DNA of 64,000 bases, taken from NCBI RefSeq assembly GCF_016623585.1, contig NZ_JAEHFY010000014.1:62001-126000 (forward strand), written 5' to 3'. The notes beneath the pieces are model-generated. The model saw only the letters and a program-made list of their open reading frames with translations, searched no databases and was not told the DNA's origin. Shown piece by piece: positions 46,596-64,000 of this stretch. This DNA is from Pedobacter segetis (GTDB taxonomy: Bacteria; Bacteroidota; Bacteroidia; Sphingobacteriales; Sphingobacteriaceae). How positions within the stretch are numbered: the first letter of the stretch is position 1; each line of letters begins with the position of its first letter. A program made the translations under genes and the position numbers.

Positions 46596-46675
46596 GCCCA
46601 GCTGGCGGAACTGGTAGACGCGTCGGTCTCAAACACCGATAGGAAACTGTGCCGGTTCGATTCCGGCGCTGGGTA
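46596..46675 (+). tRNA. tRNA-Leu (anticodon CAA), element integration site
   Basis: GCCCAGC/GCTGGGT acceptor (one G-T pair), anticodon stem TCGGT/ACCGA holding CTCAAAC (anticodon CAA), long variable arm, T-arm CCGGTTCGATTCCGG. CCA is not encoded. The integrase gene lies 106 bp beyond its 3' end, the usual arrangement when a tyrosine recombinase uses a tRNA 3' end as attB. Confidence 0.95.
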
Positions 46676-46687
46676 CATTTTTTTTAA

Positions 46688-46720
46688 AAAACCGTCCTTA
46701 GTGCTTCTAAGGGCGGTTTT
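46688..46720 (+). terminator. Terminator after tRNA-Leu(CAA)
   Basis: AAAACCGTCCTTAG (46688-46701) pairs with CTAAGGGCGGTTTT (46707-46720), one mismatch, 5-base loop, T-rich tail. It separates the tRNA from the integrase gene. Whether it belongs to host or element depends on where the att core ends. Confidence 0.8.
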
Positions 46721-46780
46721 CTGTTTTCTAAATGTTTCTTAAATGCTTTTGATATTGTTTTTTTAACCTAATGTTTCCCA

Positions 46781-47965
46781 ATGAAATCAACCGGAATACA
46801 AAAAATCACTTATCACGTACGGCCTTATAGCTATCAAAAAAAAGATAAATTGGCAGGGCTTTACCTCGGGGTTACCATCGAGCGCAAAACCTCGAAAATT
46901 CCGCTGGAGATTTATTTTCAAGAAAATTTATTTGATGCAAAGGCGGAGCAATACCGCTACAACGGTGTAAACGATGCCGAGATAAGAGATTTAAACCTTA
47001 TCATAAACACCGAAAAAGGAAAGGCAAACGAACTACTAAGGCAATACAGGTTATCGAACCAAAAAGTAACACACCATCAGTTTAAACGGGATTTTTTAAA
47101 TTATGCTAGTCGGGATTGCTTTATAGGCTGGGCGAAAGCTTATTTGGAAGATTTAAGAATATCAGGAGTAATTAAGGATCAAACCTATAAAAACAAAAAA
47201 AATAGATTGAGCCATTTTGAAGCATTCGTTAAAACGGATGTTTTATTTGCAGAACTTTCGCCACGCTTGATAGATCAGTTTGATTTATGGCTTAAAAAGA
47301 AATCCGGCTTAAATAAACATAATTCTATACAATCGGTACACGTTGGAATTAACACCTTTTTAAAAGCGGCACAAAGCGAGGGGTTAAATTTCGATAATCC
47401 GTACGAAAAGTTTAAAATAAAAGCATATCAGCCAGCAAATAGGCTATCGTTAGAAATTACGGAGCTTAAAGAACTTAAAAAAATATATTTAGCGCAAAAT
47501 CTCGGAGAAATGCAACAGGAGGTTTTACGTAAATTTTTATTTAGCTGTTTTACCGGTTTACGAATTTCGGACAACGCAAATTTAAAATACGAAAATATCA
47601 GCGATGGAATTTTAACAGTAGAAACCATCAAAGGGAAAAAATTTGGTAAAGCTGTAAAAATTGCTTTACCCGACTTTGCTTTGGAGTTACTTGGAAACGA
47701 AAGCTGGGGTTTTGTATTTAAAAAAATATCAGATCAGGAAGTAAACCGGACTTTAAAAGAGATTGCCGAAATAGCAGGGATTAAAAAGAATTTAACATTC
47801 CATGTTTCCCGTGATACTTTTGCAACTTTGTTTATTGAGCTTGGTGGGGATGTTGCCAGCCTTAAAGATTTGTTAGCGCACACCAAATTAGAAACTACCA
47901 TGATTTACGTTAAAATGAGCGAAAAAAGAAAAGAGAAACTAATGCAAAATTTCAACTCTATTTAG
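46781..47965 (+). CDS. int: Tyrosine recombinase (phage-type integrase)
   Basis: A 394-residue site-specific recombinase. N-terminal arm-binding region (VRPYSYQKKDKLAGLYLGVT), SAM-like core-binding domain (about 105-205), and the catalytic domain: R in FTGLRISDNANL, HxxR in HVSRDTFATLF, H in LLAHTKLETTMIYVKM and the nucleophilic tyrosine just after. This is the Bacteroidota CTn/phage integrase type. It inserts the element at tRNA-Leu(CAA). It is the only plus-strand gene of the element. Confidence 0.93.
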   Translation: MKSTGIQKITYHVRPYSYQKKDKLAGLYLGVTIERKTSKIPLEIYFQENLFDAKAEQYRYNGVNDAEIRDLNLIINTEKGKANELLRQYRLSNQKVTHHQFKRDFLNYASRDCFIGWAKAYLEDLRISGVIKDQTYKNKKNRLSHFEAFVKTDVLFAELSPRLIDQFDLWLKKKSGLNKHNSIQSVHVGINTFLKAAQSEGLNFDNPYEKFKIKAYQPANRLSLEITELKELKKIYLAQNLGEMQQEVLRKFLFSCFTGLRISDNANLKYENISDGILTVETIKGKKFGKAVKIALPDFALELLGNESWGFVFKKISDQEVNRTLKEIAEIAGIKKNLTFHVSRDTFATLFIELGGDVASLKDLLAHTKLETTMIYVKMSEKRKEKLMQNFNSI

Positions 47966-48008
47966 CAAAATCGTAAGCACTTTTATAGTAAAAAAATAAT
48001 TAAAAAAA

Positions 48009-49694: not shown

Positions 49695-50507
49695 TTAAAA
49701 AGTGATTAAATTTTTATTGATCCCGAAAACATATTCCCAACGGGAAAACGCCGGGTTATAATAGGAGTAAGCCAAAAGGTTTAAATTCTCTTTAAAATCG
49801 AAACTAAGCCCAGGCCCAAAAAGAAATTTTTGTTGGTTGTAATTGTAAATAGACCTTAACTGTACCGATACCGAAAATTTGCGTTTTTGGTAAGGTATAT
49901 CAAAAGTTCTTATGCTGTTAATAGTTGCGTTACTGTCAATTAAAGCAGTGTTTATATAGGCGGATTTACGCCCCAATTTTAAACCTAAAATTTTGTAACG
50001 CTCCCAATACTGCAAACCGTTAAGCTCTCCGGTGTATTTATAATTAAAAAAACCTCCGCTAGTATCTGCGGTATCTTTTTTTGGGGTATAAACAATAGAA
50101 ATCCACTTGTTTTTATAGGTTAAAACCTGTCTTTTAAGGCTATCACGTTCTTTTTTTACTTGCAGAAAATCTGCTTTAGATACAAAGTTTACCGAGCTAT
50201 AACCAATTACCTGTTTTGGTTTGATGTTGTTTGCTTTTGCGATGCTGTCAAAGGTGGCGTTTTTTAAAACTTCAGCAACGGGTAAAATATTTGAAAGTGC
50301 TTTAATGGTTACGGTTTGGATGCCCTCTTTATTAATTTTTTTATTAATGATGGTTGCTTCTTTTAAAACCGCTTTTTGGTTGGCGTATTTTTCTGATTGT
50401 AAACCCGTAATAATTTGGTTTTGCTCCCTAATTTTTAACAAGTTTTTGCCTGTAAAAAAAAGGAGTAGCGGAATTGCGATGTAGGGGATAAATTTTAAAG
50501 TTTTCAT
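49695..50507 (-). CDS. Spanin-like membrane protein with beta-rich C-terminus
   Basis: A 270-residue protein with one N-terminal membrane helix (FIPYIAIPLLLFFTGKNLL), a coiled-coil-like charged segment (about 25-60), a mid region, and a beta-rich C-terminal half that ends in phenylalanine (RWEYVFGINKNLITF), the usual outer membrane barrel signature. An inner membrane anchor plus outer membrane-like end suggests a one-piece spanin or envelope-bridging lysis protein (inference). Its start overlaps the 3' end of the 50,504 gene by 4 bp. Confidence 0.6.
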   Translation of the reverse strand: MKTLKFIPYIAIPLLLFFTGKNLLKIREQNQIITGLQSEKYANQKAVLKEATIINKKINKEGIQTVTIKALSNILPVAEVLKNATFDSIAKANNIKPKQVIGYSSVNFVSKADFLQVKKERDSLKRQVLTYKNKWISIVYTPKKDTADTSGGFFNYKYTGELNGLQYWERYKILGLKLGRKSAYINTALIDSNATINSIRTFDIPYQKRKFSVSVQLRSIYNYNQQKFLFGPGLSFDFKENLNLLAYSYYNPAFSRWEYVFGINKNLITF

Positions 50508-50779
50508 TTTTTTGCTGATTTAACCCCGGCGCTATCTGCTAACGGAGCGGTTTGTTTAATGGCATCTATAATGTGGTTTTTGATAAGTAAAGTATTTATT
50601 AAAGCGGTTTTTTCTGTTTGGCAGTCCTTTTCTGACTGCTGGGCTTTATCCGCAACTTTTTGTGCGTATTTTAAAGTATAAACCGTAACCGTTACACACA
50701 ACGTGATAGCCACGTACATTAAATAAGTACGTGGTTCTTTAAGGATTTGGGCGTATGTTGGGCGTGTGGATTGGGGCAT
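50504..50779 (-). CDS. Small membrane protein, holin- or i-spanin-like
   Basis: A 91-residue protein with one membrane helix (YLMYVAITLCVTVTVYTLKY), followed by a charged helix (AQKVADKAQQSEKDCQTEKT). This N-in, single TM, helical periplasmic form is typical of phage inner membrane spanin or holin subunits. It overlaps the spanin-like gene downstream by 4 bp and starts inside the TAATG of the 23-residue ORF upstream. No family assigned. Confidence 0.6.
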   Translation of the reverse strand: MPQSTRPTYAQILKEPRTYLMYVAITLCVTVTVYTLKYAQKVADKAQQSEKDCQTEKTALINTLLIKNHIIDAIKQTAPLADSAGVKSAKK

Positions 50780-50860: not shown

Positions 50861-52435
50861 TTATGTTTTGAAATACTTCTTAACATATTCCTCGTAGAGT
50901 TTCTTTATGTTTCTAGCTCCTTTTGCGGTTGGGTGGATATTGTCTCCTAAAACTTGAGAAGAATCATTTGCGTCGTACGAATTATTTACATTGACGAAAA
51001 ATACAGGTAGGTTTAAATCTTTAAATTCTTGACATAGATTTAAAATTCTTAATGATGCGTAATTTTGTATTAGCTTATTCGTTTGGTCGCTTATATAAAA
51101 AAAATCGGGCATATATGGAATTGAACCTACAAAAAAAGGCATATTTGTTTCTAAAGAAGATTTTAAAACTCCAAAATAATCTAATCTAATAGAACCGGAA
51201 TTCAGAACTATTTTTATTTCATTACCTGTTTGTTTAGGAAGTTTTATTAACAAAGAACACGGAACGATACTATAATTCAAGTCAGGATCATTATCCGCTT
51301 TAATAGCATCAGTTACATATGTATCTATAGTTTTGTACAAAACATTATTGACAAAAACACTAAAATTCCCTTCCTTTTCCGGGCTATTAGTTAAGAAATA
51401 GTTGAGCACCGCTACTTCTTCATAAGGTGTAATATTAAAATAAATTTCAGAAGTCGGAGAGTTTGAATAGATAGGCTGTCCATTTGGAAAACCGTTTCTA
51501 ACCGCGTCTGGCATCTTTGCAGAAAATGATAGTTCTGTGTAATCGGTCGGATTAAACGGCTGCCAAGTTCCTGTTATCGACCTTGATATTAACCCTGAAT
51601 AATCATTCCCACTTGAATTAGCTGCATCCATTCCGTATTTTAAAAACGACCAAGCAAGCATAGAGCTAATACAGCCCATTAGTTTATTGACAATTAATTC
51701 AGAGTTATATAACGTTAACGGAGCACTTCCAGAATATCTAACGTCATTAAATCCTATTTGTAAAAACGTAAGGTTATCATAAGGTGGGTAAATAAAAGTA
51801 TTTTTAAATTGCTTAAAAGCAACCATGCATCCGCTGCCGGAAACGGCTTTATTAAATAAACCTAATTGAAGCTGCTGCGCTAATTGCGCCGGCCATGAAT
51901 CTTTTTCGGGGGTAGCTAAACCGTAACCGTACGTAATGGAATCCCCAAAAGCGATAATTGTATTTATTCTTTTATATGACTCCGTATTTAAAAAATCATC
52001 GTGCAGATATATCCATTCAGAAAAAACAGTATCCGGATCATCAGAATTTCCGTTAGCAATCCTATAAGCTAAACCTGTCGTTTGCTTGTTAAATGGTGAG
52101 TTAAATTGCAACAAAACTCCGTCAGGCTGTCTGAAAGTTAAAACCAAACCATTGTAAGGGAATCCTGATTCTGTGCGTTTTATAGAACAAGCATCTTTAA
52201 AAACCGAAGGTTTATCGTCGGATTTTATAAGACCACCTGCATTCGATTTGACTGCATTTAAACTACCTATATTTTTTTTAAAATACTCATTACCTAATTT
52301 TCGGTAAATCACACCATCACATTTAGCGTCATTCATTGGGCTACCGTCTGCGTAAGTGGTTACTTTGGAGTAATTAAAGTTTTCGCCTGTGTGGCTGTCT
52401 ATTATATCGTAAAGGGTGTCATTTACTCTTTTCAT
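50861..52435 (-). CDS. SGNH/GDSL hydrolase with virion-attachment domain
   Basis: A 524-residue protein. Residues about 20-55 share a module with the 76-residue upstream protein (FNYSKVTTYADGSP and the DGVIYRKL text). The SGNH catalytic blocks are complete: IIAFGDSITYGYG near residue 160, SGSG, LQIGFNDVRY (GxND) and DNIHPTAKGAR. Between them is a beta-rich insert. Phage SGNH enzymes often deacetylate surface polysaccharide, as receptor-binding or spike proteins. I infer a spike that de-esterifies host glycan. Starts 3 bp before the 76-aa gene's end, same strand. Confidence 0.72.
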   Translation of the reverse strand: MKRVNDTLYDIIDSHTGENFNYSKVTTYADGSPMNDAKCDGVIYRKLGNEYFKKNIGSLNAVKSNAGGLIKSDDKPSVFKDACSIKRTESGFPYNGLVLTFRQPDGVLLQFNSPFNKQTTGLAYRIANGNSDDPDTVFSEWIYLHDDFLNTESYKRINTIIAFGDSITYGYGLATPEKDSWPAQLAQQLQLGLFNKAVSGSGCMVAFKQFKNTFIYPPYDNLTFLQIGFNDVRYSGSAPLTLYNSELIVNKLMGCISSMLAWSFLKYGMDAANSSGNDYSGLISRSITGTWQPFNPTDYTELSFSAKMPDAVRNGFPNGQPIYSNSPTSEIYFNITPYEEVAVLNYFLTNSPEKEGNFSVFVNNVLYKTIDTYVTDAIKADNDPDLNYSIVPCSLLIKLPKQTGNEIKIVLNSGSIRLDYFGVLKSSLETNMPFFVGSIPYMPDFFYISDQTNKLIQNYASLRILNLCQEFKDLNLPVFFVNVNNSYDANDSSQVLGDNIHPTAKGARNIKKLYEEYVKKYFKT

Positions 52436-52438: not shown

Positions 52439-52669
52439 TTAAATATCAAAAGTGTTATCAGAAAATGTAGGATCAGGCAAAACGGCTTCTATAATATCAT
52501 TTCGCTTATAAAAAAAATAATCAAACTTGATGTAATTTACGCCGTCAATATCTGCGTTTGTAATTGGTAAACCGTTTTTTGTAGAAACGTGTGTGTAAAG
52601 AAATATATTCCCGTTTTCGTCCCGGGCTTCTACGGTTCTTTCACTAATTTTTTTAATGTCTAAAGCCAT
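52439..52669 (-). CDS. Small protein sharing module with SGNH hydrolase
   Basis: A 76-residue beta-rich protein; residues about 22-58 (LYTHVSTKNGLPITNADIDG then VNYIKFDYFFYKRN) align with residues 20-55 of the SGNH hydrolase. The shared shape suggests a virion adaptor domain, used by itself here and at the N-terminus of the enzyme. It lies between the enzyme gene and the 114-aa gene with gaps of 2-3 bp. Confidence 0.65.
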   Translation of the reverse strand: MALDIKKISERTVEARDENGNIFLYTHVSTKNGLPITNADIDGVNYIKFDYFFYKRNDIIEAVLPDPTFSDNTFDI

Positions 52670-52671: not shown

Positions 52672-53016
52672 TTAGTAATTAAAATATTGGATTTGTAAAG
52701 TATGCTCTAAACCATCAATTGCCATTATCCTAAAACTAATCACGTCTAAAACAGAATTGACAGCGATTTTATCAAATGCCCTAACCGGGATGCCTTCGGT
52801 TAAAGTTGGATCTACTCCAGTTTGCCAATAACGGGCTAAAATTGCGTTTGCGGCAGCGGCGGCATTTGGTTCTAAAACCATCTGTACGCTTTTTATATCC
52901 CCTGCAACATTTCTAAAATCTTCAACGCCAAATTGTTTAAATGTGTCGAGAGATTTAACCGCTACATCTAACGTTTCGGTTTTGTTTAAAAAACATATTG
53001 GATTAATGTATCCCAT
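52672..53016 (-). CDS. Virion protein candidate (beta-rich, 114 aa)
   Basis: A 114-residue beta-rich protein (LDTFKQFGVEDFRNVAGDIK, PVRAFDKIAVNSVLDVISFR). No signal peptide, membrane helix or recognised domain. Size and beta content would suit a vertex (penton-like) jelly roll, but this is only an inference from its place between the muralytic enzymes and the spike-like genes. It lies 2 bp after the upstream gene. Confidence 0.5.
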   Translation of the reverse strand: MGYINPICFLNKTETLDVAVKSLDTFKQFGVEDFRNVAGDIKSVQMVLEPNAAAAANAILARYWQTGVDPTLTEGIPVRAFDKIAVNSVLDVISFRIMAIDGLEHTLQIQYFNY

Positions 53017-53017: not shown

Positions 53018-53596
53018 TTATGCGAAAATTGAGTGTAAAGCTTGTGTTATCCCGTCCTGTTCGTGAAAAGCCAAATTATTATCGTTCAACTCTCTTTCCA
53101 TGGCCAGTAATTGTTTATCGTAGCCGGGTAATTGATATTGATTAATTATCCGGTTTATTTTTGCAGCATATTGGTTTCTATCCGGTCCAACGTTATACCC
53201 TGCTTTTTGCAAACTATCTAATTGTGCTATTGGCGTTTTTTTTAAGGCAACTCCCTGTATTTTATACTTATTACCCTGTAAAATTGCAACGTGGGATTTA
53301 AAAGCATCTAAAAGGGTAGGATAAGCCCTCCAATAAGGTGCTTTTCCTGTCCCTAGTCTTACGCTATCGCCGCTCCAATTACTGTTTGCCATGTGTCCGA
53401 AGGGGTTGTTAAAATAATAAGCTTTGTAATTGTTACCGTAAAGGCTTTCTTGCATCGCCTGCCCTATTACTACGCTGGGCAAAATGCCCGTATTTAAACA
53501 GGCTTTTATTACTGCGGATGCAATTTTTGAGGCATATTGACCCGGAGTATTTTTGCCCGGCGTAGAACTTCCTTTATACTGAATTTTTTTGCCCAT
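53018..53596 (-). CDS. Glucosaminidase-type muralytic enzyme
   Basis: A 192-residue GH73/FlgJ-like N-acetylglucosaminidase. Motifs: PSVVIGQAMQESLYGNNYKA (catalytic Glu), YYFNNPFGHMANSNW and YPTLLDAFKSHVAILQG. It should cut glycan strands of peptidoglycan for cell entry or lysis. Its ATG overlaps by one base the stop that the upstream CHAP gene would have if the A10 run slips, supporting coupling. No signal peptide, so it probably travels in the virion or needs a holin. Confidence 0.85.
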   Translation of the reverse strand: MGKKIQYKGSSTPGKNTPGQYASKIASAVIKACLNTGILPSVVIGQAMQESLYGNNYKAYYFNNPFGHMANSNWSGDSVRLGTGKAPYWRAYPTLLDAFKSHVAILQGNKYKIQGVALKKTPIAQLDSLQKAGYNVGPDRNQYAAKINRIINQYQLPGYDKQLLAMERELNDNNLAFHEQDGITQALHSIFA

Positions 53597-53679
53597 TATT
53601 TTTTTGATTTATAAAATGTAAAAAACGCCGCTACCAATAAAAGCCCTAAAAAAAGAAGGATTAAGAAACTTTTTTTTTT
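53596..53679 (-). other. A10 slippery run and shifted-frame membrane tail
   Basis: On the coding strand 53679-53670 is A10 near the end of the CHAP gene. A -1 shift or one extra A moves reading into a frame that encodes 24 residues, SFLILLFLGLLLVAAFFTFY then KSKK, a strong membrane helix. That frame ends in TAA at 53596-53598, which overlaps the next ATG by one base. No ATG opens the tail in its own frame. Confidence 0.65.
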
Positions 53680-54194
53680 ATTCCATCTATATTATAAGGT
53701 ACTGCCGTTGAAGGTCTAGCAATTTTATAAATTGGTGTACGGGCAGTTAATAACCTACTTTTTGGATAACTGATAATTTTAACGGCATCGCTTTGGTTGC
53801 CGCCTAATATTTGAAAATTCTTTTCATCTTCTGAAACATACAAAGCAACATGGTTGCCGCCGTCTCTAGTAAAAACCAAAATATCGCCTAAGGATGGTTT
53901 ATCAGATTTTAAACCAAAGTTTGCCCAACTTTTAGCGGCTAAATAATCTTTTGGTGGTGCATAACCGCTTCTTTTGGCACAAATAGCCATAAATAAGCCA
54001 CACCATGGAATACTGTCTGTTGTGTAATATGTACTTTCCCAACCGCCCAACTCTTTTGCCCATTTTGTAATATCGGGGTTATTATCCGCTCCTTTATTTT
54101 CTAAAGTACCGTAATGGCTTAAAGCTTCAGTAACCATTTTAGGGAGTGCCAAAGCATTAAGCCATTGAAATTGTAAAGGGATTAATAAATTCAT
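53661..54194 (-). CDS. TIGR02594-family CHAP-like hydrolase
   Basis: A 177-residue protein (LNALALPKMVTEALSHYGTL) of the TIGR02594/NlpC-like type. The catalytic cysteine is in DSIPWCGLFMAICAKRSGY, and the histidine in GDILVFTRDGGNHVALYV. It probably cleaves peptide cross-links of peptidoglycan or is a virion hydrolase. The annotated end lies on an A10 run, and the shifted frame adds a membrane tail. It overlaps by 4 bp (ATGA) the 40-residue ORF upstream. The following gap of 64 bp is unusual in this dense cluster. Confidence 0.85.
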   Translation of the reverse strand: MNLLIPLQFQWLNALALPKMVTEALSHYGTLENKGADNNPDITKWAKELGGWESTYYTTDSIPWCGLFMAICAKRSGYAPPKDYLAAKSWANFGLKSDKPSLGDILVFTRDGGNHVALYVSEDEKNFQILGGNQSDAVKIISYPKSRLLTARTPIYKIARPSTAVPYNIDGIKKKVS

Positions 54195-54316: not shown

Positions 54317-54475
54317 TTAAATTTTTGAGAGTAAAAATTTATTTAAAAGCGTTACTAAAACCGCCACAATTATTGCCGTTATCGCTATATCCGTTAAGGT
54401 TTCACGATCCAGGGAGATATTCATTTTTACCTCGGGTAATTCTCCTTTTAAAAGGTTATCTACTAATGTTGGCAT
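54317..54475 (-). CDS. 52-residue tail-anchored membrane protein
   Basis: MPTLVDNLLKGELPEVKMNI, then a C-terminal membrane helix (DIAITAIIVAVLVTLLNKFL). It starts at ATG 54475 and stops at 54317. One of a run of single-pass proteins in the virion block. Function unknown. Confidence 0.6.
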   Translation of the reverse strand: MPTLVDNLLKGELPEVKMNISLDRETLTDIAITAIIVAVLVTLLNKFLLSKI

Positions 54476-54477: not shown

Positions 54478-54930
54478 TTATAAATCTTTAATTCTGCGTA
54501 TAAATGCTGGGATGGTTTCTGTATTGTCTAAAATTGGACCTACAAAGAAAACGGATTGTGTAATTTTAATACCTCGGGCTTTTTCCCAAAAACCTATCAC
54601 GGATTTTAGATTTGCATCGCTTAGTGATTTAATCAAGTTTGCGTTGTAAATCATTTTTGCGGTTGCATCTATACTTTTTTTTGATTTTTGCGCTAAAACA
54701 TCATCATTAATTGCATCAATCCAACCTGCGTAACGTTTTACCTCACTACTGTTTAAGGTAGTTGCATTGGCGTTGTATCCCGTTGCAATCTTTTGTGCAA
54801 TTGTTGCCGTTGCTGGGTTTTGCGGCGGTGCTTCGCTTTGTTTTAGAGCGGCTTTTGATTTCTTTATAAAAAAGAAAACCAAAAGCCCAACTCCAGCGAC
54901 CAAGCCAAATATTAAACCTTTGTTTTTCAT
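54478..54930 (-). CDS. Membrane-anchored virion protein candidate
   Basis: A 150-residue protein with an N-terminal membrane helix (GLIFGLVAGVGLLVFFFIKK), an Ala/Gln/Thr-rich linker, and a helical domain (SDANLKSVIGFWEKARGIKI). It looks like a membrane-embedded virion protein with its domain facing one side of the membrane. It ends 3 bp before the 52-aa gene. No family recognised. Confidence 0.7.
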   Translation of the reverse strand: MKNKGLIFGLVAGVGLLVFFFIKKSKAALKQSEAPPQNPATATIAQKIATGYNANATTLNSSEVKRYAGWIDAINDDVLAQKSKKSIDATAKMIYNANLIKSLSDANLKSVIGFWEKARGIKITQSVFFVGPILDNTETIPAFIRRIKDL

Positions 54931-56508: not shown

Positions 56509-56887
56509 GGTTTAATAATTTAGTATTACCGTTTTTTTCTATATCGTATTTTTCTGCCCGTTGCAATTGTTGGTACATTCTCCAATTGTGGGATGGGTTT
56601 TTATCGTCTAAAACCCTTGTAAGTGCCTTAACGCTTTCTTTTAATGAGTAACCGAGTGCCGCATATTCTTTAAATGCTTGCTCATCTGCTAGGTTTTCAT
56701 CATTTGTCTGCAACTCTACGTGTGCTTTTTCATGGAGCATCATAAATAAAATATGTTCTTTAGGCATATTATTGATGTGCTTCATGGAGATATACATTAC
56801 ACCAGTACGGCGGTTTACACAACCGGGAGTGCGCCCCAAATCGGCAACCCTTACCACATCGGTTATCCCTTTTGCCTTTTCTTCCAC
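56501..56887 (-). CDS. Zincin-like metalloprotease in capsid block
   Basis: A 128-residue protein with a HExxH-type motif in FMMLHEKAHVELQ (about residues 51-56), with a downstream acidic candidate ligand in NLADEQAFKEYAALG. No signal peptide. It lies between the tail-anchored basic protein and the 133-aa membrane protein. Possible capsid maturation protease or other virion-processing enzyme (inference). Start ATG 56887 is directly after the upstream stop. Confidence 0.7.
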   Translation of the reverse strand: MEEKAKGITDVVRVADLGRTPGCVNRRTGVMYISMKHINNMPKEHILFMMLHEKAHVELQTNDENLADEQAFKEYAALGYSLKESVKALTRVLDDKNPSHNWRMYQQLQRAEKYDIEKNGNTKLLNHA

Positions 56888-57289
56888 TTATTTCTTTTTA
56901 AAAAGGATGAGTAACAGAGCCAATATCAATAAGCCACAAAGAGAAACAAACAGGGTTTTATTTATTCCTAAAATGCGATCACTTTCCGGTTGAATAGGCA
57001 AAGAATAATTTTGGCTATTTTGATTATTTTGGCTTAAAGCGGCGTATTTTTTTGGGTTAATAATGGCGGCGGCTTTTCCTGCTATATCTAAACCTTTTCC
57101 CAAAATATCCCAAAGTTTGCCTTTAGGTTTTTGATCATCGGTATAATTATTAAAAGGAATTTCTTTATTGCCGTTTACATTAAAAAACAAAGTTGTATTA
57201 CGCAAATTTACGGGCATATTGTACCCAAAGGCTTTAAACAACAGCGCAACATCTTGTGGATGTTGCGCAACTAAAGTTTCTATATCCAT
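56888..57289 (-). CDS. Tail-anchored membrane protein
   Basis: A 133-residue protein with a soluble N-terminal part (MDIETLVAQHPQDVALLFKA), a Gln/Asn/Ser-rich linker, and a C-terminal membrane helix (TLFVSLCGLLILALLLILFK). It directly follows the capsid candidate by 23 bp and touches the protease gene. Probably a membrane-embedded virion component. Confidence 0.68.
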   Translation of the reverse strand: MDIETLVAQHPQDVALLFKAFGYNMPVNLRNTTLFFNVNGNKEIPFNNYTDDQKPKGKLWDILGKGLDIAGKAAAIINPKKYAALSQNNQNSQNYSLPIQPESDRILGINKTLFVSLCGLLILALLLILFKKK

Positions 57290-57312: not shown

Positions 57313-58005
57313 TTATCCTATGAATTTTGCACCACCTGCGGTTAAAGCTGATTTTGCTTTAGCTGTTTTCTTACGCAATGCTTTTGCTGGGTTTACAGAT
57401 ACACCTAACATTAACGTAAGTGTTACGGTAGTTCCCGGTAAAACGGTGTAAGAAATGATACTTTCGTCATCCATGTAAAAACTTTCTGGAATTGATAGTA
57501 TTTGAGTGTTAAAATTTTGCTCGTTTGCGAAAGTACCTACGGCAATTGAACGACTAGAACCAATTTTAAATGGGTTTTCTGATTGGATTTGGATTTGTTG
57601 CTCCATTTGCGCCACGTTTGAAGTAGAGATTTTGAAGCCGTTGATCATTGATGGGCGTTTACGGATATAATTGTAAAACTTAGCCAAACTACTAGTTGGT
57701 GTACCTGATGCGCCAGTTAAACCAGCAAATCCGTTAACATCATTAAAAGCACCGTCAACAACTTTACCTACTGCGTTATCGTTTAATCCCGGGCATAATA
57801 AAGCTGTTAAAGCCGTTGCGCCTGTATTAATAATGGTTATAACCATTGGTTGCGCTCCACGGGCTTGGTCTCTAAAAGAAGCTACGGGGCCTGCAAATTC
57901 TACCATGTCATCATCAGAGCCATCATAACCCATATAACCACCATCGTAATTTGATAATTCGTTTGCCTCTTTTTCTAAGTCGGCAGCGTTTTTATATTTA
58001 TACAT
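57313..58005 (-). CDS. Major capsid protein candidate
   Basis: A 230-residue protein beginning MYKYKNAADLEKEANELSNY, a Gly/Asp turn region, then a beta-rich body (QPMVITIINTGATALTALLC, SISYTVLPGTTVTLTLMLG-like strands) and a Lys/Ala-rich C-terminus. The size is below typical double jelly-roll proteins, so a single jelly roll is equally possible. Evidence for capsid is indirect: beta content, its place at the head of the membrane-protein block, next to the block that ends with the ATPase. Not proven by sequence. Confidence 0.5.
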   Translation of the reverse strand: MYKYKNAADLEKEANELSNYDGGYMGYDGSDDDMVEFAGPVASFRDQARGAQPMVITIINTGATALTALLCPGLNDNAVGKVVDGAFNDVNGFAGLTGASGTPTSSLAKFYNYIRKRPSMINGFKISTSNVAQMEQQIQIQSENPFKIGSSRSIAVGTFANEQNFNTQILSIPESFYMDDESIISYTVLPGTTVTLTLMLGVSVNPAKALRKKTAKAKSALTAGGAKFIG

Positions 58006-58026: not shown

Positions 58027-58179
58027 TTAAATGTGTCCTAAGCCATCAAAACCGACCTTTAATTCAGTTGATCCGTCTGCTTTGGTTAATTTTTTGGTTA
58101 GATATTTCTGTAATAGAAATAGAGCAATGCCTGCAACCACGATAGTTACTAATTGCTTTTTGTCGATGTAGCTTAACAT
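58027..58179 (-). CDS. 50-residue membrane protein
   Basis: Start chosen at ATG 58179 (MLSYIDKKQLVTIVVAGIAL), which opens directly with a membrane helix; the longer frame to 58269 reads through the promoter region. The C-terminus is soluble (KADGSTELKVGFDGLGHI). First gene of the virion block, 21 bp before the capsid candidate. Probably a minor virion membrane protein. Confidence 0.62.
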   Translation of the reverse strand: MLSYIDKKQLVTIVVAGIALFLLQKYLTKKLTKADGSTELKVGFDGLGHI

Positions 58180-58212
58180 GATTTTTTCATTTGTTTTTAG
58201 TGATTTATGATT

Positions 58213-58229
58213 CAAATGTGTAGGAGTTA
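58213..58229 (-). promoter_or_regulatory. TAAC-N5-CACATTTG motif before virion block
   Basis: On the minus strand TAAC (58229-58226) is followed, after 5 bases, by CACATTTG (58220-58213), about 35 bp before ATG 58179. The same pair, spaced 3, precedes the 61,024 gene. CACATTTG resembles the Bacteroidota -7 element TAnnTTTG. Regulatory role inferred. Confidence 0.45.
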
Positions 58230-58306
58230 CCGAAAACGGGTATTGTTTATGGATGCGAAGGGATGCCAAAGGATTTATTTTGATGCTTTTGGTAATTTTT
58301 GGACGT

Positions 58307-58340
58307 AAAAAAGCCCGTTACAATTTAAGAAACGGGCTTT
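58307..58340 (-). terminator. Terminator ending the ATPase block
   Basis: AAAGCCCGTT (58310-58319) pairs perfectly with AACGGGCTTT (58331-58340). The A run on the left makes the minus-strand U tract, separating the ATPase/HTH genes from the virion block. Confidence 0.85.
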
Positions 58341-58365
58341 AAAAAGAAAATAGAAAAGGTTTTAT

Positions 58366-58545
58366 TTAACTAGGCATTTCTAATTTTTCAAATATCTCTT
58401 TTACTTTAATAGGTGTTAATGTTCTGCAACCCTCCGGGATGGTAATTTGTGCCGTTGTAAGCCATTTTTTAAACGTTTTACTACTTACGCCATACATGAT
58501 ATATAATTCTTTATAGGTGTAAGCTTTTACAGGCGTTTCTTTCAT
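58366..58545 (-). CDS. Small helix-turn-helix protein
   Basis: About 59 residues from ATG 58545 (MKETPVKAYTYKELYIMYGV), with a homeodomain/MerR-like HTH (YKELYIMYGVSSKTFKKWL). The ATG overlaps the TGA of the ATPase by one base (TGATG). The longer frame from 58608 starts within the ATPase gene. Resembles the DUF4248-like regulators of Bacteroidota elements (recalled); it may control the adjacent virion promoter. Confidence 0.65.
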   Translation of the reverse strand: MKETPVKAYTYKELYIMYGVSSKTFKKWLTTAQITIPEGCRTLTPIKVKEIFEKLEMPS

Positions 58546-59114
58546 CAAACAAATGTTTCCACGGTTAATGAATGGTAAGGGCTGGGGTGTGCGCAAACTT
58601 TTTTCCATGCTTTTAATATGTTTTCGTAATTGGGGATGCGGTTTCGGTTTGCGCCTTGCTCAAAAACTTCTACTGTTTTGCCTACACTTACATAACTTGC
58701 CATTTCCCACATTTGCGGAGGTATGCGTTTTAAGCTATGGAATGTAAAAATTAGATCTAGGCGTAACATCCTATGATCGGTTAAAAATTTCTTGATGCCT
58801 TTGCTTAAGTTTCCCAAAATATATTTGGTGCAATCTTCAAAAATGATTAAGCCATCTGTAAAATGTTTAGATATATGCTCTAAAGTTTCTTCGTCCGGTA
58901 CACCTATCAATTTAACAATGCCATTTCCTTTAACTAATCTTAATCTTTTTAATTCTATTTCTTGAATAAAATTATAAGCTGGAGATCCGTTTACATCAAT
59001 TACCAAAACTTTTGAATAACGGGCATAACACTTAGCGATTTCTGCAAGCTTGGTACTTTTGCCCGTTCCCTTTTTGGCAACCATTAACGTGGTATGGTGT
59101 AAATCTCTTGCCAT
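58545..59114 (-). CDS. Packaging ATPase-like P-loop protein
   Basis: A 189-residue P-loop NTPase. The Walker A-like loop is VAKKGTGKSTKLAEIAKCY (about residues 12-30), Walker B is DGLIIFEDCTKY near residue 93, and a sensor segment is DLIFTFHSLKRIPPQM near residue 137. It is close in size and order to FtsK/HerA/A32-type packaging ATPases such as PRD1 P9, with no nuclease domain; terminase would have one. The 25-residue ORF upstream overlaps its ATG (TAATG). Role in genome packaging inferred. Confidence 0.72.
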   Translation of the reverse strand: MARDLHHTTLMVAKKGTGKSTKLAEIAKCYARYSKVLVIDVNGSPAYNFIQEIELKRLRLVKGNGIVKLIGVPDEETLEHISKHFTDGLIIFEDCTKYILGNLSKGIKKFLTDHRMLRLDLIFTFHSLKRIPPQMWEMASYVSVGKTVEVFEQGANRNRIPNYENILKAWKKVCAHPSPYHSLTVETFV

Positions 59115-59191: not shown

Positions 59192-59382
59192 TACCAATTA
59201 CGGGTTTTAAACCTTGTAACGTATAAATGATTACTCCCTTTAGGTTGCATCAATACTTTATGCCCTGCGTTAAGCCAGTTGGTTTTAACGGTTTCTAATT
59301 GTGCGCCTTCAAATGCTCCTTGGTAGCAATATTCTACGCCAAAGTGATTAATGTTTGTTTTCGGGTTTGGTTGGTTGCTCAT
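59191..59382 (-). CDS. Hypothetical 63-aa protein
   Basis: Soluble protein, MSNQPNPKTNINHFGVEYCY, with no recognised domain. It is preceded by an ATGA overlap with the 57-aa gene and followed by a TAATG overlap with the 25-aa ORF. Function unknown; conserved-looking aromatic and Gly residues (GAFEGAQLETVKTNWLNAGH). Confidence 0.6.
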   Translation of the reverse strand: MSNQPNPKTNINHFGVEYCYQGAFEGAQLETVKTNWLNAGHKVLMQPKGSNHLYVTRFKTRNW

Positions 59383-59552
59383 GATGTTTTTTGTTTTAAA
59401 TTTTCTCTGATTATTCTTTTAACTATAAATTGTTTTTCTCGTTTTTTAATTGGTTTCAATTCATTTATTAAAAAATCACGGGCAAAAATATTACCTATTA
59501 CAAATGCAAAGAGCGTAGCCAAAAAAAGAAGAGCAACCAAAAAATTAAGCAT
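59379..59552 (-). CDS. 57-aa membrane protein
   Basis: MLNFLVALLFLATLFAFVIG (membrane helix at the start), then a very basic tail (PIKKREKQFIVKRIIRENLK). ATG 59552, TGA at 59379 overlaps the next ATG (ATGA). Overlaps the 88-aa gene by 8 bp. Probably an integral virion or lysis membrane protein. Confidence 0.6.
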   Translation of the reverse strand: MLNFLVALLFLATLFAFVIGNIFARDFLINELKPIKKREKQFIVKRIIRENLKQKTS

Positions 59553-59811
59553 TTTTGCGGCGTTTTAATTTTGCGGCTTTTTTGAACCGTAAACGATTGT
59601 GTTTTTTAATTCTTTTATCCGGGATTGAGTTTGTAAAGCTAAATTTAGGGGTATAATAAACCGCTGTGGCTGGTAATTCAGTCCATGGGTTATGATATGA
59701 ATAAACTCTGTTAGAATCAATCATTTTTAACTGTTTACGGTTACTTTCTTGATTAGATAGAATGGTATAAACCATTATGAATAAAATAATTATGAAAACA
59801 ATTATATTCAT
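59545..59811 (-). CDS. Membrane protein with basic tail
   Basis: An 88-residue protein with an N-terminal membrane helix (MNIIVFIIILFIMVYTILSN) and a Lys/Arg-rich C-terminus (KRIKKHNRLRFKKAAKLKRR). The plan repeats that of the 57-aa neighbour. It may link membrane to genome (inference). Starts 4 bp after the 196-aa gene. Confidence 0.65.
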   Translation of the reverse strand: MNIIVFIIILFIMVYTILSNQESNRKQLKMIDSNRVYSYHNPWTELPATAVYYTPKFSFTNSIPDKRIKKHNRLRFKKAAKLKRRKNA

Positions 59812-59815: not shown

Positions 59816-60406
59816 TTAATCTATGGAGTTAAATAATGATATTCTTTTTGCGGTTACGTCTCCAAAAGCTAACATTAACCCTGTAAGCGGAGACATTTTT
59901 AAATTTGTTACTTTCACATATCTTGCAGTACCATCAACTAGGCGGCGTTTTTCTCCTTCGCTAAAAGGGAACTGATCGACAATAGATAAATATTTATTGT
60001 AACGGTTTAAAATCTTCTTTTCGGGGCTGTTTTCGCGGTAAATTGTGCCGCCTGTGGTATCTAAAGTATCCAACATTTCTAACTCTTTAGCCGTGAAAAC
60101 AGATTTTTTAAGAAAAATTGGCAATCCAAATGCTTGCAAACCGTCAATACAACCTACAATACTTTCTGCGGTGTCTTTTGGGTTTAAATACATTGGTTCG
60201 TCCGAATATTCGGAATCATCAATTAACTGCCCTTGATCTTCTTTTTCGTCTAAATCTTCAATAATTTCTTCTTCAAATTCGGGCCGAAAATTTTCTTCTG
60301 AAACATCAATATTAAATACGGCTGGGTTGTCTTTTACTTCTACCTTTTCGGATAAAATATCTAATAGATTAATCGTGTTTTCGGTTGCTTTTGGTTCTTT
60401 AGGCAT
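59816..60406 (-). CDS. Hypothetical element protein with acidic N-terminus
   Basis: A 196-residue protein: a very acidic stretch (EENFRPEFEEEIIEDLDEKE) at about 38-57, then a helical domain (SIVGCIDGLQAFGLPIFLKK) and a conserved-looking C-terminal part (LKMSPLTGLMLAFGDVTAKR). No family recognised. It could be a scaffolding or packaging accessory protein. It overlaps the 107-aa gene by 8 bp and precedes the membrane genes leading to the ATPase. Confidence 0.62.
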   Translation of the reverse strand: MPKEPKATENTINLLDILSEKVEVKDNPAVFNIDVSEENFRPEFEEEIIEDLDEKEDQGQLIDDSEYSDEPMYLNPKDTAESIVGCIDGLQAFGLPIFLKKSVFTAKELEMLDTLDTTGGTIYRENSPEKKILNRYNKYLSIVDQFPFSEGEKRRLVDGTARYVKVTNLKMSPLTGLMLAFGDVTAKRISLFNSID

Positions 60407-60722
60407 TTTTATATTTATCTAAAATGGGTTGGATATGCGAAAACTGATTTAGAACATCGTCGTTTTTTAAAAGCTTCATGATGGTAACCGGGAGGGTAAC
60501 CATGTTTATTTTACCGCTAAAAAGATTAGAAAATGAATTGAAAACGGTTATCAGTTCGCCTAAATCTTGTTTTAATTCGTGGTTTTGTGCAACCAATTGT
60601 TTAAGGTTTTCGGCATTTACTTGTACCATTTCGGGAGCAATTAACTCTGTTTGAAAAATGATTTCTGGCGTTTCTTTGATTTCTTCAATTTCTGAAACTT
60701 CTTTTTGATACTTGTCTTTCAT
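60399..60722 (-). CDS. Hypothetical helical protein
   Basis: A 107-residue, helical, acidic protein with a central coiled-coil-like segment (VNAENLKQLVAQNHELKQDL). It starts 4 bp inside the 101-aa gene (ATGA) and overlaps the 196-aa gene. Probably an element-specific partner of its neighbours. No domain match. Confidence 0.6.
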   Translation of the reverse strand: MKDKYQKEVSEIEEIKETPEIIFQTELIAPEMVQVNAENLKQLVAQNHELKQDLGELITVFNSFSNLFSGKINMVTLPVTIMKLLKNDDVLNQFSHIQPILDKYKNA

Positions 60723-61024
60723 CGGGTTTTTAGGGATGATAATAAATCGTGATTGTTTTTTTTTATGAGGTCTAAAGCCAACATTACTATATCATAATTG
60801 CCGTTTTCGGCTAATCCTAGCTGTTTTTTTCGGGCGGCAATGGCTTTATTTATTGTGCATGCGGTTTGCTCTGTTGCCCTTGCTGTAAACTGATATTTTT
60901 TTGGGTTTTCGCTCTTTAAATGCTGGTTACGGGGTTTTTTTTCCGTTTCTTTTGCCGCCGGGACTCCCGAGGTATCAGGCTCGAGAGTGGGCGGCGTTTG
61001 GATGGGGTGGAAATGATCAATCAT
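60719..61024 (-). CDS. Hypothetical basic DNA-binding candidate
   Basis: A 101-residue protein. Proline-rich, charged N-terminus (PTLEPDTSGVPAAKETEKKP), then KKYQFTARATEQTACTINKA with a helix-rich end (NYDIVMLALDLIKKN), a layout like ribbon-helix-helix DNA-binding proteins. First gene of the ATPase block, preceded by the CACATTTG motif and the 61,121-61,290 repeats. It may be the block's regulator or a partition-like protein (inference). Confidence 0.58.
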   Translation of the reverse strand: MIDHFHPIQTPPTLEPDTSGVPAAKETEKKPRNQHLKSENPKKYQFTARATEQTACTINKAIAARKKQLGLAENGNYDIVMLALDLIKKNNHDLLSSLKTR

Positions 61025-61970: not shown

Positions 61971-62593
61971 GGACATTCAATACGTTTAAAAGAATAAACC
62001 CAAACCCACGGATTTTCTTCCCAGGATTTTTCTCCATTAATTTTTTGCCATAAGGTCATAAATGAAAAAAGCTCATTACACCCATAATCAAGTGTTAAAT
62101 AGTTGTAATACAATTTTTGTGAAATACCTTGAATAAAATCTACACCTTCATTTCTAGCATCTACATGGAAAATATCTCTTAATCTTTCAATTTTTTTTCC
62201 TGTAACTTCCAGCCAAATACGGCAAGCATCTCGTGGCATAAAAATAGAAGGCTTCCACCCTAAAGCAGGTTTATCATATTTACTCTCAACATCTGCTCGG
62301 TAACAATATTTATCGAAGGAGAGTATTTTCCCAAAGGTTTCTCTAACCCAAAATATGTCGCCAACATTAGCTTTACCAAATCCATTTTCTTTCATGGCAA
62401 CAAATTCTGGGGTAAATCCATCATTTAACCAATCTAAAGCCATCCCTTTCACTTGCCTTCTTGTTTGGGTTTTAGTTCCATTTAAAATCGCCTGTACCAT
62501 TGGAGTTGAAAATAAAATAGGCCTACACACGGCATCCGCTAACATATTATTTGCGTTAGTGTCGGTCGACTTGTTATTAATTTCTGTTTTCAT
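61955..62593 (-). CDS. ASCH/phage-type domain protein
   Basis: A 212-residue protein of the ASCH-like type often met in phages. PILFSTPMVQAILNGTKTQT is the start of the fold, followed by KANVGDIFWVRETFGK, WKPSIFMPRDACRIWLEVTG and NPWVWVYSFKRI. ASCH/EVE-like domains bind modified nucleobases or RNA; phage examples have no settled function. It sits among early genes, upstream of the control region. Confidence 0.75.
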   Translation of the reverse strand: MKTEINNKSTDTNANNMLADAVCRPILFSTPMVQAILNGTKTQTRRQVKGMALDWLNDGFTPEFVAMKENGFGKANVGDIFWVRETFGKILSFDKYCYRADVESKYDKPALGWKPSIFMPRDACRIWLEVTGKKIERLRDIFHVDARNEGVDFIQGISQKLYYNYLTLDYGCNELFSFMTLWQKINGEKSWEENPWVWVYSFKRIECPEGFR

Positions 62594-62660
62594 TTATGTA
62601 AGTTTTTCGTTATTTAATTAATTATGTGGTTTAAAGTCCACCAACTCAAATAATCGGTCG

Positions 62661-62846
62661 TTATAACTCATTTTGAACCCGAGTTTTATAACGACTAATT
62701 TTTTCCAATTTACGTTCCATTGCTAATTTTCTTTTTATTTGGTATTCAGAAGTTTTAAAATGTTCTTCCATTATCTTCCAATTAATTAAAAAATTCATTG
62801 TAGTTTGAATATCTTCTTTGATTAATTTTAACAGATATTTTTTCAT
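62661..62846 (-). CDS. Hypothetical small basic protein
   Basis: 61 residues from ATG 62846 (MKKYLLKLIKEDIQTTMNFL), helical and basic. It overlaps the end of the 86-aa gene (62782) by 65 bp in another frame, so one of the two may be spurious. A frame from 62876 adds ten residues. No family. Confidence 0.45.
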   Translation of the reverse strand: MKKYLLKLIKEDIQTTMNFLINWKIMEEHFKTSEYQIKRKLAMERKLEKISRYKTRVQNEL

Positions 62847-63042
62847 AAAAAAACGATTTATAACAGTTGTTGGCACTATTGCCGTTTATTTTTTCAGCGG
62901 AAAATACGATGGTAATATTAAATTTAGTTTTCATAATTTCGTTCACGTTATCGGCAACAGATGCCAAGCAACGTAACGTTCGTTTTTCTAAAAGGGGTGT
63001 AAATTTGCCCCAATGTTTAGGTTTATTGTTTCTGTTTTTCAT
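62782..63042 (-). CDS. Hypothetical early protein
   Basis: An 86-residue protein (MKNRNNKPKHWGKFTPLLEK then RTLRCLASVADNVNEIMKTK). Its ATG overlaps the primase stop (ATGA), which supports translation. The first half looks protein-like; the last 25 residues are low complexity. Overlaps the next gene in another frame. Function unknown. Confidence 0.5.
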   Translation of the reverse strand: MKNRNNKPKHWGKFTPLLEKRTLRCLASVADNVNEIMKTKFNITIVFSAEKINGNSANNCYKSFFYEKISVKINQRRYSNYNEFFN

Positions 63043-63875
63043 ATCCTTTTTACTAAAAATTCGTTAAAATCATTGTAACCATTAAAAAGCCCTCTTTTAT
63101 CTTTGGTATGTGGTGGCATTTGGGCAAATGCTTTATTTCCTCCGGTGTCGTTATCGCCATAAAAAGAAATATCAGAATAGGGCATAAAATCTACGAAATG
63201 AATCATTGCGCTACCGTTTAAAATAATGACGGTGTGCGCTGGTTTCATGTTCCAAAAGGTTACGGCACTTAAAAAATCCATAAAGCCCTCAAAAACGGAA
63301 ACTTTTTTGGTGCCTGGGTTGATGGTAGTAAACCACTTTGGGGATTTCGCTACTTTAGAAAACTTACTCCGCAAATCGAAACCGCCCTTATCGTTTTTGA
63401 AACCGACTGCGTATTGCTTTTTTTCGGGGTTTTTACTGAAATGGAAATGCACTTCCTGTATGTAGCTGTAACATAGCGACACGTTTATTTTGCGCTCGTA
63501 ATGCAAATAATCTTCAAGGTGTAGGTTTTTAAGCTCGTGGGTTTTGGTTATTACCAGCTCGTTAAATGTTTCTTCCGGTGGTTTTACATTGCTAAGGTTT
63601 AACCCGGAAAGCTTTTCAACGGCGGTTTTAAACTCGCAACGTTCTAACTCCATACAAAGTTTTATAATATCACCGCCCAGCTGTGCGGAGTAATCAAAGA
63701 AGCTGTTTTTATGCTCGTTTACGTTTAACGATGCTGTGCGGTCATCCGTAAAAGGGCTATGAAAGAAAGAATTTTTTGCGGTGCTTCGTTTGGCATCTTT
63801 TAAAACTCCTTTGCTTTGCAGGTAATCGGAAATTGATTTTTCCTTTACTTGATCTAGGATTGATTGGTCTATCAT
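63039..63875 (-). CDS. Toprim-domain primase-like protein lacking zinc ligands
   Basis: A 278-residue protein. The N-terminal region copies the CHC2 zinc finger of DnaG (KNSFFHSPFTDDRTASLNVN, FFDYSAQLGGDIIKLCM) but the zinc cysteines are missing. The Toprim core is present: SVFEGFMDFLSAVTFW (glutamate) and ISFYGDNDTGGNKAFAQ (DxD). It could prime the element's replication or be a primase-derived accessory. Such proteins are frequent in Bacteroidota mobile elements. It overlaps by ATGA both its upstream and downstream genes. Confidence 0.78.
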   Translation of the reverse strand: MIDQSILDQVKEKSISDYLQSKGVLKDAKRSTAKNSFFHSPFTDDRTASLNVNEHKNSFFDYSAQLGGDIIKLCMELERCEFKTAVEKLSGLNLSNVKPPEETFNELVITKTHELKNLHLEDYLHYERKINVSLCYSYIQEVHFHFSKNPEKKQYAVGFKNDKGGFDLRSKFSKVAKSPKWFTTINPGTKKVSVFEGFMDFLSAVTFWNMKPAHTVIILNGSAMIHFVDFMPYSDISFYGDNDTGGNKAFAQMPPHTKDKRGLFNGYNDFNEFLVKRI

Positions 63876-64000
63876 AACATTAAATCCTCCTTACTTTCTG
63901 TTTGTCCGCGTTGTAACCTAAATTTTTTAATATCCTCAATTGGGCAAAATTTGAAGTACTTTTCTATATAATCCCAGCTGTAAAAATCTTCTATTTTAAA
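63872..64000 (-). CDS. Partial element gene (C-terminus only)
   Basis: The last 42 residues (IEDFYSWDYIEKYFKFCPIE then DIKKFRLQRGQTESKEDLML) and TGA; the rest lies beyond 64,000. TGA overlaps the primase ATG. No domain can be named from this fragment; a helicase or primase partner would fit the position, but that is a guess. Confidence 0.6.
   Translation of the reverse strand, partial: FKIEDFYSWDYIEKYFKFCPIEDIKKFRLQRGQTESKEDLML

Follow-up and report, generated by a model that had tools for sequence, protein, structure and literature searches.

The right-hand part of a 64,000-nucleotide stretch of DNA from a Pedobacter-like bacterium (the window; positions 62001-126000 of contig 5 in a 3.84-Mb genome of 72 contigs) holds a prophage which, on its gene content, is almost certainly complete and tailless. 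We consider it rather likely that this element is a complete temperate virus, whose capsid would be made of a single jelly-roll protein lying over a membrane and whose DNA would be packaged by a small ATPase of the FtsK/HerA class; an internal membrane in the virion is plausible on gene content. The first-pass annotation had described the region as a tailless module rich in membrane proteins with a HerA/FtsK-type ATPase, and both the profile comparisons and the hydropathy analysis support that description.

The element is bounded by two copies of a 16-bp segment from the 3' end of a transfer RNA gene, tRNA-Leu(CAA), located at 46664 and again at 69175, the next longest matches of the same query being 13 bp. 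Because this repeat recurs at 69175, where the expected attR copy past position 64,000 was thereby located, the element is seen whole, with both borders: it occupies 46664-69190 (22,527 bp), its right border lying 5.2 kb past the window on the same contig, which extends 6541 bases beyond the window end (locus L002, window 64001-70541). The flank and the tRNA gene could be matched in 16 of the 18 genomes of the genus, and in all ten congener loci without the element (our own genome and G008 excluded) identity to the tRNA region stops 0-3 bases past the tRNA 3' end. In the congener G008, Pedobacter cryophilus AR-3-17, the repeat at this tRNA measures 15 bp; in the relative G002 it measures 13 bp and lies at tRNA-Leu(GAG), a match picked because it sits at the tRNA end, past the final conserved gene. 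To the right of the repeats in G002 and G008 lie what we take to be chromosomal genes.

No terminase, portal or tail module was found between the attachment (att) sites, including the part from 64,000 to attR, which agrees with what had been claimed for the window; the integrase, ATPase, capsid candidate, two muralytic enzymes and SGNH hydrolase named there are all present as open reading frames (ORFs), with families assigned by Pfam where known. At an E-value of 0.001, 41 proteins (39 from the element and two from past attR, taking the 766-residue gene minus its last 42 codons and omitting three short element ORFs of 45, 40 and 71 amino acids, aa) matched 15 NCBIfam families, among them integrases and recombinases, a primase, hydrolases of the cell wall and an esterase, with two further families whose names state no function; neither terminase, portal or tail families nor relaxase or mating-pair families are among these 15. 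The 25 PHROG families listed out of 35 likewise include no terminase, portal or tail family except as labels on three proteins: phrog_2666 (“terminase”) falls on the 189-aa ATPase (6.5e-6), and the CHAP protein and the spike attract the labels “baseplate hub/tail lysozyme” and “tail fibre”. In the G002 element, for which 34 proteins were scanned, the tail labels belong to the spike (among 25 of 49 PHROG families listed). Only three proteins in the gene list exceed 350 aa, namely the integrase (394), the spike (524) and the primase-helicase (766), and there is therefore little room for a terminase, portal or tape measure. In PADLOC a single protein of the element, presumably the primase, fitted a model, an RT-associated DnaG-like one (8.4e-8). 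A Kyte-Doolittle scan with a 19-residue window and a threshold of 1.6 gave nine single-helix proteins and a marginal peak in the capsid candidate, so that the “at least ten” one-helix proteins counted earlier come to nine and this one doubtful case.

The packaging ATPase

The identification of a packaging-type FtsK/HerA ATPase is well supported by profile comparison, and among the proteins compared its nearest relatives appear to be those of the Thermus single jelly-roll viruses. In hhalign, which here compares a profile with a sequence and whose E-values apply to a single comparison, the ATPase family matched IN93 ORF11 at 96.0% (E 4.9e-9, 168 columns) and the P23-77 ATPase at 94.4% (E 9.3e-8, 156 columns), followed by PM2 P9 (77%, E 2e-5, 123 columns), M13 gpI (46%) and PRD1 P9 (30%, 139 columns). 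The terminases gave 1.6% (T7 TerL) and 0.3% (lambda TerL). A conjugation-type ATPase had been considered a possible undoing of the virus interpretation; F TraD, the one such protein tested, reached 13% over 33 columns around Walker A, against 94-96% over 156-168 columns for P23-77 and IN93. When each of seven targets was shuffled 30 times, no score exceeded 24.6, whereas the real scores were 53.8 for P23-77, 39.2 for PM2, 22.2 for T7 and 17.1 for lambda; the 30 shuffles of P23-77 itself peaked at 16.4.

The ATPase gene is present in all 12 elements compared, that is, our own and 11 others, of which G164 and G343 are seen only as 3.7-kb loci whose edge cuts this gene, and the motif GK[ST]T is kept in all ten full-length copies aligned. 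Hydropathy shows no membrane segment in the protein. Pfam returned generic P-loop matches for the ATPases. When the ATPase and the capsid candidate were searched as proteins against 50,697 phage records, the result was one weak unrelated match (E 0.4) and otherwise none.

Fourteen other families of the element were compared with 80 proteins of P23-77, IN93, SNJ1, SH1, PM2, PRD1 and FLiP and four control ATPases (best three per family). None scored above 12.9%, and thus only the ATPase, which was run separately, matched.

A candidate major capsid protein

The 230-aa protein encoded at 57313-58005 is our candidate for the major capsid protein (MCP), and the structural models make a single jelly-roll probable. 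AlphaFold gave a predicted local distance difference test score (pLDDT) of 52.6 and a predicted template modelling score (pTM) of 0.52 for the window protein with three sequences, and 56.1 and 0.57 with a 38%-identical homologue as the query and four sequences. For the first model, viral coats, mainly of picornavirus type, fill 46 of the best 50 Foldseek rows (E ~1e-3) and 19 of the best 50 rows of VIA, where the rest are other beta proteins (best Z 6.0, 133 residues, 4.3 A); a search of BFVD returned 19 matches with E <= 0.001 (best 1.3e-4), in which unnamed proteins, giant-virus proteins and picornavirus-like capsids are mixed. For the second model, VIA opens with 19 rows that are without exception viral structural proteins (best Z 5.1). 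The fold rows cover residues 45-207 of the window protein, and this core of ~160 residues therefore has space for one barrel. Lack of a jelly-roll in every structural candidate had been named beforehand as speaking against the virus interpretation; the models of this protein do retrieve viral single jelly-rolls, with the low confidence seen in their scores.

The sequence of the candidate is more reticent. Against Pfam and PHROGs nothing was better than 0.89, and its profile gave one chance match among PDB sequences (E 0.63). Searched against the ORFs of the 12 elements, the profile found one member in each, the next best E-value being 0.12 in our own element and 0.19 in the relatives. A comparison of the capsid family with every other family of the element, aimed at a hidden second capsid protein, gave at most 0.3%; a second jelly-roll with an unrecognisable sequence would escape it.

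Relatives and conserved gene order

Searches for the capsid gene recovered it from 4 of 150 relatives and from 9 of 399 genomes of the family, our own genome being counted in each. At the level of the class, seven of 395 genomes passed E 0.01 and three are clear (our own, G746 and G612); a match in G565 (2.5e-4) is plausible and was not counted among the compared elements, and those in G601, G610 and G670, together with a second one in G612, were treated as chance. A phylum-wide search with a wider profile returned only our own genome among 395. Most pattern-based scans of IMG/VR came back empty, and two contigs turned up in the others: L040 shares its capsid sequence with G220, and L045 is metagenomic. 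With these two contigs and none among the 50,697 phage records, the group is scarce in the virus collections searched. We found no description of it in titles or abstract openings of the literature, a coverage that leaves out preprints and most subscription papers.

Other genomes and a metagenomic contig show the module with its genes in this order and on this strand, although individual genes were not found in some elements. The order runs from the primase-helicase through the 107-aa and 196-aa proteins, the ATPase, a small conserved gene, a one-helix protein, the capsid candidate and a 133-aa protein, and continues with the HExxH protein, a long low-complexity protein, one-helix proteins, the muralytic enzymes, a 114-aa protein and the spike. 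Genes for the capsid candidate, the ATPase, the HExxH protein and the small protein next to the ATPase were found in all 11 other elements. In the G008 element an extra gene, presumably cytosine-methyltransferase-like, stands between the primase and helicase genes (L019:2439-3398); our element lacks it.

A proposed temperate tailless virus

Taken together as a virus, the element would use its tyrosine recombinase to integrate at tRNA-Leu(CAA), in the 3' end of that gene, and would replicate its DNA with the primase and the DUF5906 primase-helicase. Its particle would be tailless and icosahedral, with a shell of one single jelly-roll protein covering a lipid membrane in which the one-helix proteins of 54317-58269 are embedded, and the small FtsK/HerA-type ATPase would load double-stranded DNA into it. 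The vertex may carry a spike with a constant anchor and a tip that is swapped among relatives, the zinc-peptidase-like protein might trim a structural protein during assembly, and the glucosaminidase and CHAP enzyme would breach the wall at entry and exit. The data establish the borders of the element, its gene content, the conserved gene order and the kinship of the ATPase, whereas the role and fold of the capsid candidate, the membrane, the double-stranded DNA in the particle, the protease function and the place of the spike are inferred.

Several observations weigh against this interpretation. Both capsid models are of low confidence: against the PDB, Foldseek reached at best E 1e-3 with the first and nothing below 0.1 with the second, and Z-scores of up to 6 may reflect merely a common arrangement. 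None of the known MCPs with which the capsid profile was compared (P23-77 VP16/VP17, PM2 P2, PRD1 P3 and the FLiP MCP) matches it in sequence. The haloarchaeal ATPases score low, at 0.3% for SNJ1 and 32% over 20 columns only for SH1, and the link to Helvetiavirae is therefore limited to the Thermus branch. The “terminase large subunit” family phrog_2666 matches seven of eight ATPases of the group (best 9.2e-7). The G002 element has two other 13-bp matches elsewhere, and matches of this length arise by chance in that query. Finally, the integrase gene of G008 reads in two frames.

A terminase reading of the ATPase, as phrog_2666 would have it, was rejected: the protein has 189 residues and is at chance level against the lambda and T7 terminases. 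The split integrase gene of P. cryophilus (L018:5891-7004; 77 + 320 aa) is an observation of its own; with the gene in two frames, the G008 prophage may have lost the ability to excise, or the draft may be in error.

Comparison with known viruses and alternative explanations

By ATPase, the nearest viruses tested are P23-77 and IN93 (Matshushitaviridae, Helvetiavirae, now Singelaviria). P23-77 also shares the gene order of ATPase, small genes, capsid gene(s) and small structural genes; lysis enzymes are common to all, the genomes measure 17.0 and 19.6 kb against 22.5 kb here, and IN93 has an annotated integrase-like gene. Unlike our element, these viruses have two MCP genes where we found one; the capsid sequences do not match, and the host here belongs to the Bacteroidota. 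Two single jelly-roll MCPs are the defining trait of Helvetiavirae (PMC8328091, PMC8812541), a group transferred in 2025 to the realm Singelaviria (PMC12714852); helvetiavirus-like proviruses are reported from haloarchaea (PMC5332951). The element would work like Helvetiavirae, yet it falls outside the two-MCP definition, as a single capsid gene and no paralogue was found in each of the 12 elements. Its ATPase is homologous to the FtsK/HerA enzymes of Helvetiavirae/Singelaviria (IN93 96%, P23-77 94%; SNJ1 0.3%, SH1 32%).

An earlier assignment to the PRD1, PM2 or FLiP type stands as regards the absence of a tail, the wealth of membrane proteins and the class of the ATPase; those viruses have double jelly-roll capsids, however, and the capsid protein here looks single. 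A very divergent double jelly-roll virus, related to Corticoviridae (PM2) or Finnlakeviridae (FLiP), is accordingly the first alternative to be weighed, and we regard it as unlikely. The Pseudoalteromonas phage PM2 resembles the element in its order of P9, P7, MCP, small structural genes and spike, and in a P9-type ATPase (77% for PM2 P9, though only 30% for PRD1 P9); it differs in its 10-kb genome, its annotated replication initiation protein and its MCP, a double jelly-roll of 269 aa. The Flavobacterium phage FLiP and FLiP-like prophages are tailless, have many small structural genes and belong to Bacteroidota hosts, with FLiP-like prophages reported in Pedobacter (PMC13269007). FLiP itself is described with a double jelly-roll MCP and a rolling-circle Rep and without a packaging ATPase (PMC5894146), and its genome measures 9.2 kb, whereas our element has an ATPase, 22.5 kb and a primase with a primase-helicase. 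A 230-aa capsid protein with a core of one barrel's size, models that match single jelly-rolls, and a profile that matches neither the FLiP MCP nor PM2 P2 all argue against a double jelly-roll. One single jelly-roll MCP gene is reported for Sulfolobus polyhedral virus 1 (Portogloboviridae; PMC8812541), which stands among the fold rows at rank 35 (Z 4.6) for the first model and rank 31 (Z 3.0) for the second; that virus has an archaeal host and is described there without a packaging ATPase, the gene found in 12 of 12 elements here.

A phage satellite or capsid-hijacking island, for which a helper phage would supply tails or packaging, would account for the integrase, the DUF5906 primase-helicase (which we take to be P4-like), the integration at a tRNA gene and a size of 22 kb. 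We nevertheless hold a satellite to be distinctly improbable: the element brings lysis enzymes, a spike, an ATPase and a capsid candidate of its own, conserved together in several genomes as one module, and among the NCBIfam matches and the PHROG families listed no portal or terminase family was found except phrog_2666 on the ATPase. A filamentous, inovirus-like prophage is very improbable too. The weak Zot matches of four of eight ATPases (best 0.009), the 46% to M13 gpI and the many one-helix proteins, which could be coat proteins, would fit a Zot-type assembly ATPase, but the enzyme is closer to the packaging ATPases of the Thermus viruses and carries no membrane segment; two muralytic enzymes, a primase-helicase and a length of 22.5 kb are moreover unlike inoviruses. 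As for the tailed viruses (Caudoviricetes), terminase, portal and tail genes appear in the 15 NCBIfam families and the 25 of 35 PHROG families listed only as the labels on the ATPase, CHAP enzyme and spike. Least probable of the alternatives is a tailed prophage in decay or an integrative element of non-viral nature, with a secretion or conjugation apparatus made from the membrane genes and the P-loop ATPase, since the gene order is kept in many genomes, the TraD match is confined to the surroundings of Walker A, relaxase and mating-pair families are absent from the 15 NCBIfam matches and host CRISPR spacers target the element.

Other proteins of the element and its surroundings

The features of the element are collected in Table 1; the names holin and spanin apply to candidates only.

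Table 1. Coordinates (window numbering), strand and basis of assignment for features of the prophage.
Position	Strand	Feature	Evidence
46596..46676	+	tRNA-Leu (CAA), integration target	ARAGORN
46664-46679; 69175-69190		attL core (CGGCGCTGGGTACATT); attR copy, same contig, past the window	exact repeat
46781..47965	+	tyrosine recombinase (integrase), 394 aa	Pfam Phage_integrase 5.1e-18; PHROG integrase 3e-36
49695..50507	-	270-aa protein, 4-base overlap with next gene; putative spanin/holin-region protein	homologue only in G008 among 11 elements
50504..50779	-	91-aa one-helix protein; putative holin/spanin	hydropathy
50861..52435	-	putative spike/receptor-binding protein, 524 aa; C-terminal SGNH/GDSL hydrolase	GDSL 1.3e-10
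52439..52669	-	76-aa protein resembling the spike anchor	spike residues 17-55 also match neighbouring homologue in G002 (49%, 2e-6)
52672..53016	-	114-aa protein conserved beside spike, possibly vertex-associated	homologues in 8/11 other elements; no strong match to any listed family
53018..53596	-	glucosaminidase, entry or lysis muralytic enzyme	Pfam Glucosaminidase 1.7e-18
53661..54194	-	CHAP-type endolysin	CHAP 3.1e-5, slightly below Pfam cut-off
54317..54475	-	52-aa one-helix membrane protein	hydropathy; conserved
54478..54930	-	150-aa N-anchored membrane protein	hydropathy; comparison with other elements
55044..55490	-	148-aa N-anchored membrane protein	hydropathy; comparison with other elements
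55480..56508	-	342-aa low-complexity protein, C-terminal membrane helix; putative minor virion protein or scaffold	sequence homologue only in G008
56501..56887	-	HExxH-x7-E-x3-D metallopeptidase-like protein; candidate maturation protease	motif in 12/12 elements
56888..57289	-	133-aa protein, C-terminal membrane helix	hydropathy; comparison with other elements
57313..58005	-	major capsid protein candidate, 230 aa, probably one jelly-roll barrel (residues ~45-205)	AF2 models (low confidence), fold matches, one copy per element, host CRISPR spacer target
58027..58269	-	80-aa one-helix membrane protein, TTG start	hydropathy; comparison with other elements
58366..58608	-	small conserved protein beside ATPase	in 11/11 other elements searched
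58545..59114	-	genome packaging ATPase, 189 aa, FtsK/HerA class, too small for an added nuclease domain	hhalign
59379..59552	-	57-aa one-helix membrane protein	hydropathy
59545..59811	-	88-aa one-helix membrane protein	hydropathy
59816..60406	-	196-aa conserved module protein	in 9/11 other elements
60399..60722	-	107-aa conserved module protein	in 7/11 other elements
60719..61024	-	101-aa conserved module protein	in 7/11 other elements
63039..63875	-	DnaG-type primase (CHC2 zinc ribbon, Toprim)	Pfam 2.1e-10 and 5.8e-5
63872..64000, runs to 66172	-	766-aa primase-helicase (DUF5906/VapE-like), 3' end in window	DUF5906 4.3e-15 on first 724 aa

The N-terminal anchor of the spike is 73% identical to that of G002 over residues 1-64 and 52% to that of G008 over residues 1-79, and the rest is unmatched; residues 79-139 of the G002 spike match tail and tail-spike families. 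By these alignments the protein appears as a constant anchor with exchangeable ends. No homologue of the CHAP enzyme was seen in G002, G008 or G050, and in G002 a different endolysin-family protein stands in its place.

The HExxH protein gives weak Pfam matches to M78 in five of eight members (best 0.0015) and to M48 in two of eight (best 0.0037), and a PDB match to proabylysin (0.0048); its motif is one that we take to be gluzincin-like. Because its gene constantly sits beside the capsid gene, a role in maturation cleavage suggests itself. The small protein encoded next to the ATPase is presumably DNA-binding. A 212-aa protein at window 61955-62593 has a strong match (1.8e-58) to phrog_874, a phage family without known function, and after the 766-aa gene come smaller genes and then attR, to 69190.

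Past attR (L002:5391-6541, window 69391-70541) lie a small lipoprotein-like gene and a 90-aa gene, then the contig ends. The 90-aa protein, which is outside the att sites, has no PHROG match, and we take it to be of a kind found in tailed prophages of Bacteroidetes; another element may be present in tandem at the same tRNA. In G007, partial second matches to the tRNA-Leu gene and its 3' end (L067:1055-1138), ~440 bases from the gene, may be the scar of another integration at this site.

A host CRISPR array matching the resident prophage

Contig 33 of the host genome carries an array of clustered regularly interspaced short palindromic repeats (CRISPR) with 70 recognised repeats (51627-58388, L022:11628-18389). 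Of its 67 spacers of 29-31 bases (two longer repeat gaps of 1440 and 105 bases being excluded), five are 100% identical to the resident prophage, with protospacers starting at 49633, 52691, 53270, 54924 and 57555, the last of these within the capsid gene. Shuffled spacers, in which base composition only was preserved, never reached 80% in ten rounds. No clear consensus emerged from the analysis of protospacer adjacent motifs for the five self-spacers. Beside the array is an uninterrupted ORF of 1410 aa, which we take to be Cas9-like, as we take others to be Cas1 and Cas2, and on that basis the array is presumably of type II. Self-targeting without death, with cas9 apparently intact, suggests either an anti-CRISPR of the prophage or a silent CRISPR system.

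The 1440-bp stretch (L022:11674-13113) starts directly after a repeat and contains the 3' end of a packaging ATPase gene, ~77% identical in protein sequence to that of the prophage, with the following small gene and a gene pair, presumably toxin-antitoxin-like. This ATPase copy was rejected as a sign of a second prophage, being a 3' fragment only and lying inside the array.

Implications for the origin of Helvetiavirae

Beyond the favoured reading as a temperate tailless virus, we suggest tentatively, giving it a little less than even weight, that the group may be a new tailless double-stranded DNA lineage of Bacteroidota. It would combine one single jelly-roll protein with an ATPase related to that of the Thermus helvetiaviruses, before or without duplication of the capsid gene, and would have a morphogenetic metallopeptidase as an additional hallmark; if true, it would merit a high-rank taxon beside Helvetiavirae. 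In PMC8812541, Helvetiavirae are proposed to derive from a virus with one single jelly-roll gene through duplication of the capsid gene and gain of an FtsK-like ATPase, and one jelly-roll gene together with an FtsK/HerA ATPase is the intermediate of that proposal. The authors of PMC8328091 remarked that haloarchaea and Thermus are the only known sources of viruses of the Helvetiavirae type, and that the direction of evolution might be decided by sampling more widely. If mesophilic Bacteroidota, Pedobacter cryophilus AR-3-17 included, have a relative that combines a single capsid gene with the ATPase, this would make the question testable.

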